From the NCBI GenBank assembly GCA_902600225.1, contig CACKIH010000002.1, forward strand, positions 77,743-116,234: a DNA stretch of 38,492 nt, given 5' to 3'. The position numbers and the translations under genes are program-made. The notes beneath the pieces were generated by a model. The model ran no database searches, was not told the origin of the DNA, and saw nothing but the letters and a program-made list of their open reading frames with translations. The stretch is from an uncultured Alphaproteobacteria bacterium (GTDB lineage: Bacteria > Pseudomonadota > Alphaproteobacteria > HIMB59 > GCA-002718135). Positions 24,549-26,806 of the stretch are shown one piece after another; the first letter of the stretch is position 1, and every line of letters starts with the position of its first letter.

Positions 24549-25223
24549 ATGAGAGAAATAGTAATTGATACAGAAACCACGGGCCTTGATTATAAGACCG
24601 GTGACAGAATAATAGAAGTTGGTTGTGTGGAACTCAAAAACTATGTTCCTACAGGAAACACGCTCCAATTTTATTGCAAACCAGACAGAAGTATAAGCGA
24701 AGGAGCAAAAAACATTGTGGGTCTTTCAGACGATTTTCTTAATCAACAAAAACCATTTGAAGAAAACCACAAGGAGCTTTTAAATTTTTTGAAAAACGAC
24801 ACATTGATAATTCACAATGCGTCATTTGATTTAGGTTTTATAAATAATGAGTTGTCAATCTTAGGATTACCTCATTTAGACAATCCTGTAGTTGATACAG
24901 TTTCTCTTGCAAGAGAAGTTCTAAATACAAGAATAGCTAACCTCGACTATTTGTGTAGAAGATTTAACATTGATTTATCAGATAGATCATTTCACGGAGC
25001 CTTACTTGACTCCCAACTTCTAGCCGCAGTTTATTTAGAGTTAAGAGGGGGTAAGCAATTTTCTATGGAGCTGAATTCAAACATCAACGAAAAAAACACA
25101 CAAATTAACAACAAAAACGAAACAAAAACCAAAATAATAGAAGTTAATAAAGAAGATTATCTTGCCCATAAAGAAATGTTAAAAAAACTAAAAAACCCCC
25201 TTTGGAAAAAATTTAACTATTAA
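24549..25223 (+). CDS. dnaQ: DNA polymerase III epsilon subunit (proofreading exonuclease)
   Basis: 224-residue DEDDh 3'-5' exonuclease that proofreads for the replicative polymerase. Exo I is DTETTGLD (residues 7-14), Exo II is HNASFDLGF and Exo III is FHGALLDSQLLA with the catalytic histidine and aspartate. A charged C-terminal tail (about residues 175-224) probably holds the polymerase-binding segment. secB, often next to dnaQ in relatives, is not present at this place; a timA-like gene follows after 30 bp. Confidence 0.96.
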   Translation: MREIVIDTETTGLDYKTGDRIIEVGCVELKNYVPTGNTLQFYCKPDRSISEGAKNIVGLSDDFLNQQKPFEENHKELLNFLKNDTLIIHNASFDLGFINNELSILGLPHLDNPVVDTVSLAREVLNTRIANLDYLCRRFNIDLSDRSFHGALLDSQLLAAVYLELRGGKQFSMELNSNINEKNTQINNKNETKTKIIEVNKEDYLAHKEMLKKLKNPLWKKFNY

Positions 25224-25253: not shown

Positions 25254-25835
25254 ATGATTTACGGCGACCTTCAATTTTTTGATATTCTAATTTTTGCAGC
25301 TATTGCTGGATTTATTATTTATAGACTTAGGAGTGTTCTAGGGAAAAGAACAGGATTTCAAAAAAATATTTCAGAGCCAAAACCTCAAGAAACCAAAAAA
25401 CAAGAAGATGTTCAAAAAATACCATCACTTATGGATAACGAGACAAAGCTTGAGGTTGTATATAAAAAAGTAAATAATTTTAATCACAGAGAGTTTCTTG
25501 ATGGTGCCAAGAAAGCTTTTGAAATTATAATTTCATCTTTCAACAATGGTGATAAAAAAACACTGAAAAACCTTGTGTCTAAAGATGTTTATTCTGCTTT
25601 TGAAAAAGCGATTGATGAAAAAACAAACAATCCTGAATCACAATTTTATTCGCTTATTGTAGAGGGCATCGCAGATGCAAAAGTAGAAAATGACACAATA
25701 TCAATATCGGTCAATTTTATTAGTGAACAGATGTTAAATAATGATGAGGGTTCTATTGTTAAAAATAAAGACACTTGGACTTTCGAAAAACCAGTAAATT
25801 CTAATAGTCCAATATGGATATTAACTCAAACTTAA
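25254..25835 (+). CDS. timA: Tim44-like domain membrane protein (TimA type)
   Basis: 193-residue protein with one N-terminal membrane helix (FFDILIFAAIAGFIIYRLRSVLG, about residues 8-30), a charged linker (about 32-60) and a C-terminal Tim44-like domain: FLDGAKKAFEIIISSFNNGDKKTLKNLVSKDVYSAFEKAI and a beta-rich end with NDTISISVNFISEQ. The mitochondrial Tim44 binds Hsp70 at the import pore; bacterial TimA is thought to act at the inner membrane but its role is poorly defined. The position between dnaQ and smr agrees with alphaproteobacterial synteny. Confidence 0.87.
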   Translation: MIYGDLQFFDILIFAAIAGFIIYRLRSVLGKRTGFQKNISEPKPQETKKQEDVQKIPSLMDNETKLEVVYKKVNNFNHREFLDGAKKAFEIIISSFNNGDKKTLKNLVSKDVYSAFEKAIDEKTNNPESQFYSLIVEGIADAKVENDTISISVNFISEQMLNNDEGSIVKNKDTWTFEKPVNSNSPIWILTQT

Positions 25836-25838
25836 TAT

Positions 25839-26267
25839 TTGTCCTTTAAAGAACTCAAAGACCGAATTAAAAAAAACGAGGGTTATTCTGACAAGCCTTA
25901 TCAAGATCAATTAGGGTTTTATACTATTGGTTATGGTCATCTTATTACAGAAAAAGAAAATAAATATTACATTAAAAAATTTAAAAAAAAATATTTTGAA
26001 GAATTGTTTGAGATAGATTTTAAAAAAGCACACGAACAATATAAAAAAAAATTTTTAAAAAAAAACCACACAACTTCAGAGAAGGAATTATTAATAGAAA
26101 TGATTTTTCAACTTGGAGCAAAAGGTGTCTCTAAATTTAAGAAAATGCTTTATTTTCTAAACAAAAAACAAAAATTCATGGCATCACTAGAGATGTTAGA
26201 CAGTTTGTGGTATTTGCAAACACCTGAAAGAGTAAAGAATTTAATTAAAAAATATACAAAAAAATAA
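25839..26267 (+). CDS. T4-type lysozyme (GH24 muramidase-like), short
   Basis: 142-residue protein resembling phage T4 lysozyme along nearly its whole length. The catalytic triad lines up: E14, D23 and T29 in NEGYSDKPYQDQLGFYTIGYGHLIT have the same spacing as T4 E11, D20 and T26. The C-terminal lobe MIFQLGAKGVSKFKKML ... LDSLWYLQTPERVKNLI matches T4's MVFQMG...RWYNQTPNRAKRVI. It lacks T4's last roughly 15 residues and has no signal peptide or membrane helix, so how it would reach peptidoglycan is unclear. The start is a TTG three bases after the timA stop, and its stop overlaps smr by one base, so it is embedded in the operon. In relatives this slot usually holds the lytic transglycosylase gene mltA. 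Very lysine-rich, like neighbouring genes. Confidence 0.85.
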   Translation: MSFKELKDRIKKNEGYSDKPYQDQLGFYTIGYGHLITEKENKYYIKKFKKKYFEELFEIDFKKAHEQYKKKFLKKNHTTSEKELLIEMIFQLGAKGVSKFKKMLYFLNKKQKFMASLEMLDSLWYLQTPERVKNLIKKYTKK

Positions 26268-26806
26268 TGGAAGAAGATTTTTTTCTAAAAAACATGAAAG
26301 GTGTAAAACCTTTTAAAAAAGATATCTCTGTAGTTAAAACGAAAACAACTAATAAAAAAAATGTAAAATTAGATAAAAAAACTAATACTAAAAATACCAG
26401 CAAACAAACAATAGCTGAACACAAAGTTAGTAGCTCAGAGTTTAAATTATCATTTGGTGAGGTTAATAAGGAGCTTAAGCGGGGAAAAATTAATATAGAT
26501 AGAAGAATTGATCTTCATGGGTACGGTTTAGTCGAAGCTCGTGAAAAATTTATAAGTGAGGTGAAAAAAAATTATAACAAGAACAAAAGATGTTTGCTTA
26601 TAATTACCGGAAAGGGTGTTCATAAAAAGATTGAAAATGAGCAAGACACAAATCTTAAACTTTTCTATGGAAAGATTAAAAACTCAATAATAGACTGGAT
26701 AAACGAAGAAGATCTTAAGAAATATATCTTAACACATCAAGACGCAGGTTTTGAACACGGGGGCGACGGGGCTCTTTTTGTCTATCTAAGAAAAAAAAAG
26801 TTTTAA
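26267..26806 (+). CDS. smr: Smr domain protein
   Basis: 179-residue protein with a basic, low-complexity N-terminal half (about residues 1-75) and a C-terminal Smr (small MutS-related) domain: RRIDLHGYGLVEAREKF, CLLIITGKGVHKK and AGFEHGGDGALFVYLRKKK. The DLHG and TGKG and HGGDGA motifs are the conserved nuclease-like signature. Smr domains have been linked to RNA or DNA endonuclease activity; the substrate here is unknown. Final TTAA is shared with the stop of the opposing DUF3108 gene. Confidence 0.92.
   Translation: MEEDFFLKNMKGVKPFKKDISVVKTKTTNKKNVKLDKKTNTKNTSKQTIAEHKVSSSEFKLSFGEVNKELKRGKINIDRRIDLHGYGLVEAREKFISEVKKNYNKNKRCLLIITGKGVHKKIENEQDTNLKLFYGKIKNSIIDWINEEDLKKYILTHQDAGFEHGGDGALFVYLRKKKF

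Follow-up and report, generated by a model that had tools for sequence, protein, structure and literature searches.

The open reading frame under study lies in the window, by which we mean the whole stretch of 38,492 nucleotides that was analysed, and encodes a protein of 142 amino acids from a TTG start codon (Table 1). The assembly from which the window was taken is 1.25 Mb in size and 75% complete. An earlier note, based on inspection of the DNA, had called the product a T4-type lysozyme and had proposed a profile search, a structural comparison, a tree and a scan of related genomes as checks. Against the Pfam profile PF00959 (Phage_lysozyme), whose cut-off is 22.3 bits, the protein scored 39.4 bits, and the objection held out by that note, namely that a GH24 profile would find nothing significant, was thereby removed. 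A phmmer search of the PDB returned, among the matches listed, mostly T4 lysozyme chains, with E values of about 1e-14 to 1e-13. The AlphaFold model, for which a 50-row alignment served as input, had a pLDDT of 91.1 and a pTM of 0.85, and its best PDB matches were T4 lysozyme (TM-score 0.86 by query length, 28% identity), indicating that the protein has the T4 lysozyme fold. The catalytic spacing E14-x8-D23-x5-T29 was present as the note had stated it, and is the spacing of the catalytic Glu, Asp and Thr of T4 lysozyme. These results confirm the predicted product, at the level of enzyme class and as judged from profile, fold and residues, as a GH24 (T4-type) lysozyme.

Table 1. Positions of the genes and codons at the lysozyme locus of the window, and of the small membrane protein frames near lysozyme genes of marine phages
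Feature	Position	Strand	Evidence
dnaQ-type exonuclease gene, in the upstream portion of the conserved block	24549..25223	+	PF00929 3.5e-31; synteny
timA, Tim44-like, with hydrophobic N-terminal stretch	25254..25835	+	PF04280 2.4e-20; NF033779 2e-44; hydropathy 1.98
Predicted GH24 (T4-type) lysozyme gene	25839..26267	+	PF00959 E 9.1e-10; T4 lysozyme fold (model); kept across the family
TTG start codon, 3 nt past the timA stop	25839..25841	+	TTG in 74/74 named relatives
Codon of predicted catalytic Glu14 (T4 E11)	25878..25880	+	E in 74/74 relatives
Codon of predicted catalytic Asp23 (T4 D20)	25905..25907	+	D in 74/74 relatives
Codon of predicted catalytic Thr29 (T4 T26)	25923..25925	+	T in 74/74 relatives
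smr-domain gene	26267..26806	+	PF01713 5.4e-15; flanks the lysozyme gene in 74/74 named loci
phrog_2524 frames on marine phage contigs	L129:3809-4213; L139:1548-1901; L140:711-1085; L357:2478-2864; L358:3429-3779		

The neighbors dnaQ, timA and smr, which the note had named, were each borne out by profile matches (PF00929, PF04280/NF033779 and PF01713), and TimA scored 152 bits against NF033779 (cut-off 80). The start of smr and the stop of the lysozyme gene overlap by one base. No holin or phage genes adjoin the lysozyme gene as they would in a phage lysis cassette, and the statement that the locus lacks a phage context thus stands.

We investigated the distribution of this arrangement. According to an excerpt of PMC10734472, genomes of the order HIMB59 form two families, f_HIMB59 and f_GCA002718135, and AG-891-K05 is the reference of a genomospecies of the family GCA002718135; AEGEAN-169 is given as a synonym of HIMB59 in an excerpt of PMC10308909. 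The sister family in our samples we infer to be f_HIMB59. Within the genus to which the window belongs, 24 of the 37 genomes (own genome included) contained the lysozyme gene, all of them in the order dnaQ-timA-lysozyme-smr, and timA was found in those same 24 genomes and in no others, indicating that the absence of the gene from the other 13 goes with assembly gaps. A scan of the order detected a GH24 match in 85 of 162 genomes and in six of seven genera; the six make up the family GCA-002718135 and all carry the gene between timA and smr, and the seventh is by elimination that of the sister family. Among the named loci with close relatives, which are mostly from marine single-cell genomes, timA preceded and smr followed the gene in 74/74. 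Across all 104 loci checked (the 74 named loci plus 30 of the 85 order-scan genomes, partly the same genomes) this was so in 103, the sole exception being L230 of genome G088, which lies on a phage-like contig. Nine further loci, including one each from genera g3, g6 and g7, had the gene in the same place. In the two sister-family loci that were read completely, smr was the next gene after timA, and all six loci of this family contained timA and smr in that order and no GH24 gene.

No broken frames were present in the 74 named loci, and the residues E14, D23, T29, H34, Q91 and W124 were invariant in 74/74, a tally that counts related genomes rather than independent events. Median pairwise dN/dS, for pairs limited to 0.2 < dS < 1.5, was 0.089 for the lysozyme gene, compared with 0.048 for timA, 0.053 for dnaQ and 0.126 for smr. 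The pairwise protein identities of the lysozyme correlated with those of timA and dnaQ at 0.97 and with those of smr at 0.85. The lysozyme gene is under purifying selection. Given its retention across the family and its grouping in a single clade (see below), we regard it as nearly certain that the gene has been domesticated as a standing cellular gene, as had been suggested from the window alone.

The same results bear on whether the gene belongs to a prophage remnant or to contaminating phage sequence. In favor of this, phage genes are the closest relatives found beyond the family, and one GH24 match in the order (L230) does lie on a phage-like contig. Against this, the host contigs are up to 884 kb long, timA and smr stand on either side, the place is the same in six genera and the identities track those of the flanking genes. 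We therefore rejected this explanation as highly improbable, and a recent prophage origin, which the earlier note had named as a finding that would speak against its view, does not apply.

The gene had been described as lying in the chromosomal slot of mltA. MltA is a peptidoglycan-cleaving enzyme, and in E. coli it is an exported lipoprotein. Its profile, PF03562, matched in 220 of 289 class genomes (completeness at least 90%, own genome added), and in 29 of 30 mltA loci, which were the best-scoring of the 220 genomes and not a random draw, timA lay just upstream of mltA. In only 4 of these 30 loci did the smr profile detect smr behind mltA, perhaps owing to short flanks and to the AT-rich sequences from which the profile was derived, and for this reason the smr side of the mltA place is not claimed for the class. 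Thus the slot holds on its timA side, directly after which MltA is encoded elsewhere. The slot lysozyme has no sequence match to MltA, PF03562 finding nothing in it, and, unlike MltA of E. coli, it carries no signal.

No mltA was found by PF03562 in any of 61 genomes, comprising the own genome (75% complete), 36 own-genus genomes and 24 sister-family genomes, the 10 genomes of at least 90% completeness all being from the sister family; nor was it found in G111, an own-genus genome that is 96% complete. A move of mltA to another place, which had been held out as an objection, is accordingly rejected as far as the own genus and the sister family were searched. About 56 class genomes (counted by eye) contained timA without an mltA match. 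In the 30 of these that were taken, smr came right after timA in 10, no downstream ORF of at least 60 aa was present in 3, and the GH24 profile detected no lysozyme gene after timA in any. The 10 genomes with smr directly after timA indicate that mltA loss often closes the gap. Among the genomes sampled, only the family GCA-002718135 has a lysozyme in the timA-smr gap. A general habit of the class was also considered and rejected: 40 of 385 class genomes had a GH24 match, two of them from the own family, and none of 28 loci (L240-L267) from other class genomes with GH24 had timA or smr within 1.5 kb.

Transglycosylases were kept in both families, with matches to PF01464 in 24/24 genomes (that in G133 being weak) and to the MltB-type PF13406 in 21/24, indicating that the cells still have such enzymes. 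The suggestion that the lysozyme replaced a peptidoglycan-remodelling enzyme is therefore upheld for the place in the chromosome and is only a hypothesis for the function of MltA, given that the sister family is without both genes and transglycosylases persist.

We next considered the absence of an export signal. Hydropathy revealed no signal peptide or transmembrane stretch; the best 19-residue mean was 0.54 in L055, a near-identical copy, and over the 74 relatives it was at most 1.59 and, within the first 35 residues, at most 0.22. As judged by hydropathy, then, the N-terminal signal or signal anchor of a SAR or Sec-exported endolysin was lacking in 74/74 members, in keeping with the original description. 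A start further upstream had been offered as a way out. Since timA ends in the frame of the lysozyme gene, with its stop one codon ahead of the TTG, an N-terminal extension of the lysozyme is impossible, and an in-frame stop occurred 0-1 codons upstream in 19 of 24 relatives; a missed upstream start with a signal peptide was therefore rejected. Among the rows listed, the starts of slot and phage genes aligned within about one codon.

The TTG start noticed in the window occurred in all 74 named relatives, being displaced one codon upstream in L126. Other genes of the same loci mostly start with ATG (coaE 74/74, dnaQ 72/74, timA 70/74, smr 72/74), and largely invariant internal leucines of the same lysozyme sequences showed mixed codon use. 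By the same count, the downstream DUF3108 gene had TTG in 51 of 72 loci; an ATG immediately followed in 46 of these, suggesting that ATG is probably its true start. No Shine-Dalgarno-like motif precedes the lysozyme gene, which is not special to it because such motifs are almost entirely lacking before its neighbors too (dnaQ 5/74, timA 0/74, smr 1/74, coaE 0/74). The TTG start, taken by itself, suggests that the lysozyme may be expressed at a low level and hence at a low dose. It need not be a new adaptation, because the nearest phage relatives also start with TTG.

The closest relatives outside the family were marine-phage lysozymes. The best named phage matches were those of Pelagibacter phages, with about 42% identity, and the best IMG/VR contigs reached 47%. 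A tree of phage and bacterial members, as had been proposed, was built from 62 proteins (after dereplication, slot rows went from 103 to 23 and viral rows from 81 to 20, and 15 of the 28 class loci were dropped because of short alignments). All 23 slot representatives grouped in a single clade (99/100) within the phage lysozymes, with the viral contig L196 as its nearest neighbor (91/79), and 13 further GH24 proteins from alphaproteobacteria fell elsewhere. The forks on which the nesting depends had moderate support (87/89, 89/85 and 91/79), and the outgroup branches were long and were flagged by the tree tool. In a second tree of 61 proteins, with more phages and no outgroup, the slot clade was again single (100/100); this tree is silent on nesting since its midpoint root falls between slot and phage proteins. 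A phage-to-host origin is likely on this evidence, a grading that we lowered from an initial very likely because the nesting support is only moderate. Most likely, the ancestor of the family GCA-002718135 would have acquired the gene from a marine phage in a single event; the gene would then have settled in the timA-smr interval, where mltA has its place elsewhere, and would have been inherited vertically as a core gene since then.

The pelagiphage and marine-phage GH24 endolysins (HTVC119P, EXVC032P Baldr, HTVC111P and those of IMG/VR) are likewise single-domain proteins of about 140-150 aa with the same catalytic set. The nearest start among the first 80 viral relatives was ATG in 79 and TTG in 1, and the nearest phage branch (L196, L376-L378) shares the TTG start of the slot gene, L375 being the same contig as L196. 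In L196 the TTG start overlaps the stop of the holin gene, and the lysozyme start of L376 is overlapped likewise by a preceding ORF of the holin's size; the contigs of L377 and L378 begin too near the lysozyme for an upstream ORF to be judged. A three-helix holin (PF11351/phrog_3427) lay near the lysozyme of L196 and L203, and a small phrog_2524 membrane protein lay near that of L129, L139, L140, L357 and L358. The phrog_2524 proteins have a holin-like size and hydrophobic stretch and may be a holin family. Thus, the phage genes examined adjoin a holin or a phrog_2524 protein, whereas the slot gene has timA upstream instead. The slot proteins also differ from the phage proteins in net charge (median +16.5 in 28 rows versus -4 in 22 rows), a shift that is partly host composition, as coaE and smr of the AT-rich host are lysine-rich too. 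They further differ at three positions, with N13, L123 and Y125 in place of the H, R and A of most phage members, and these residues could mark a changed function.

Randich et al. are said to have treated SpmX, a further alphaproteobacterial protein of this type. According to part of PMC5347347, the lysozyme-like domain of Caulobacter SpmX has a conserved E19, and lysozyme activity was not detected. SpmX of Caulobacterales, where a stable gene of this class likewise encodes a lysozyme-like domain of GH24 type, is the closest precedent. It is a polarity factor built of several domains, with a proline-rich region and C-terminal transmembrane segments, whereas the slot protein is a bare domain that keeps the full catalytic set and occurs in another order and at another locus. 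Its score against the SpmX model NF051871 was 15.4 bits (cut-off 700). The model of the GTA endolysin BgtA (NF058676) matched residues 6-111 with an E value of 7e-06 and 25.7 bits, far from its cut-off of 315, and the slot gene is adjoined by timA and smr and not, unlike BgtA, by GTA genes.

The explanation that we favor overall, with a probability of about 0.5, is that a captured phage endolysin has become a core gene and acts on the cell's own wall. Translation coupled to timA would supply small amounts of the enzyme, whose most likely function would be to cut the peptidoglycan of its own cell at a low dose. That the catalytic residues do not vary speaks for catalysis, and we put the odds that the protein is an active muramidase on its own wall at roughly even. 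The lack of a signal peptide implies either that the protein leaves the cytoplasm by a route independent of a signal peptide or that it acts only once the inner membrane has been opened.

Two serious rivals remain. Conservation of catalytic residues does not by itself prove catalysis, since SpmX keeps its glutamate and yet no activity was found, and the GH24 fold could have been repurposed in a similar way for binding or scaffolding in the cytoplasm, with TimA at the membrane as one conceivable partner and with catalysis lost or irrelevant. This precedent from the same class (PMC5347347, in part), the lack of a leader in 74/74 members by hydropathy, the adjoining gene for a protein with a hydrophobic N terminus and the slot-specific N13, L123 and Y125 all fit such a role. 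We consider it unlikely, given that the catalytic set is invariant in 74/74 and common to slot and phage members, and that the slot protein consists of a single domain and lacks both the proline-rich and the transmembrane parts that SpmX has. Alternatively, a cytoplasmic lysozyme might act only after a phage holin or the death of the cell has breached the inner membrane, and bring about early lysis of infected cells or turnover. The phage relatives adjoin a holin or holin-like gene and the slot has none, which suits this rather doubtful proposal, and two assemblies contain phage-like contigs, indicating that cells of this kind encounter phages. Of 28 family and order genomes, one, the own assembly, had a PF11351 match, which lay on a contig with phage-like genes, and none of 20 other family genomes had one; this search covered the one holin family, for which 0 of 14 control genomes were positive. 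Against conditional lysis, the gene has no link to a defence or death programme, its neighbors are housekeeping genes, and its strict retention would suit a routine function equally well.

A variant of the favored explanation concerns timA, which lies directly upstream of the slot lysozyme as the holin gene does in the nearest phage. The phage wiring might have been kept, with a TTG start coupled to an upstream membrane-protein gene, and TimA in the place of the holin might govern the passage of an active, leaderless lysozyme towards the wall. We regard this as improbable; if true, the host itself would be exporting or gating an endolysin, with no holin involved, for routine wall growth. After SpmX, the locus would seem to be the second instance in which a GH24 lysin of phage type turned into an alphaproteobacterial core gene. 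Here the active site is complete, and the clade is a marine one with streamlined genomes, in which idle genes are unlikely to last. The locus raises the testable question of whether a leaderless lysozyme can serve the wall of its own cell. As the neighbor of timA is mltA in many genomes of the class and a lysozyme of phage type in this family, it also raises the question, likewise testable, of whether the widely conserved timA is linked to peptidoglycan enzymes. In the open literature we found no publication joining SAR11, HIMB59, lysozyme and peptidoglycan, which is no proof that the matter is unpublished, and the HIMB59 literature examined did not contain the word 'lysozyme' in its main texts.

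Several further observations were made on individual genomes. The GH24 lysozyme L230 of G088 (L368, G088:C11:15000-27000) starts with ATG, lies among genes that look phage-like by eye, and is adjoined by a small membrane protein resembling phrog_2524; it may belong to a phage of this clade. In the own genome, the slot gene was the only GH24 match. The own assembly also contains a 39-kb contig, C11 (G000:C11:30000-39210; L373, L374), with head and tail genes that look podovirus-like by eye and a broken-looking GTA_holin_3TM-like frame (PF11351, E 1.7e-7), perhaps from a phage caught with the single cell. Among the 30 further loci, L216 (G079) was the sole slot member observed to have none of the codons TTG, ATG and GTG where the start is expected, which reflects either a sequencing error or an unusual start. 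In L017 (G029), identity to the window was 73% for dnaQ and 75% for timA, and 91% for the lysozyme and 88% for smr; this change at the timA/lysozyme border suggests homologous recombination with a breakpoint there.
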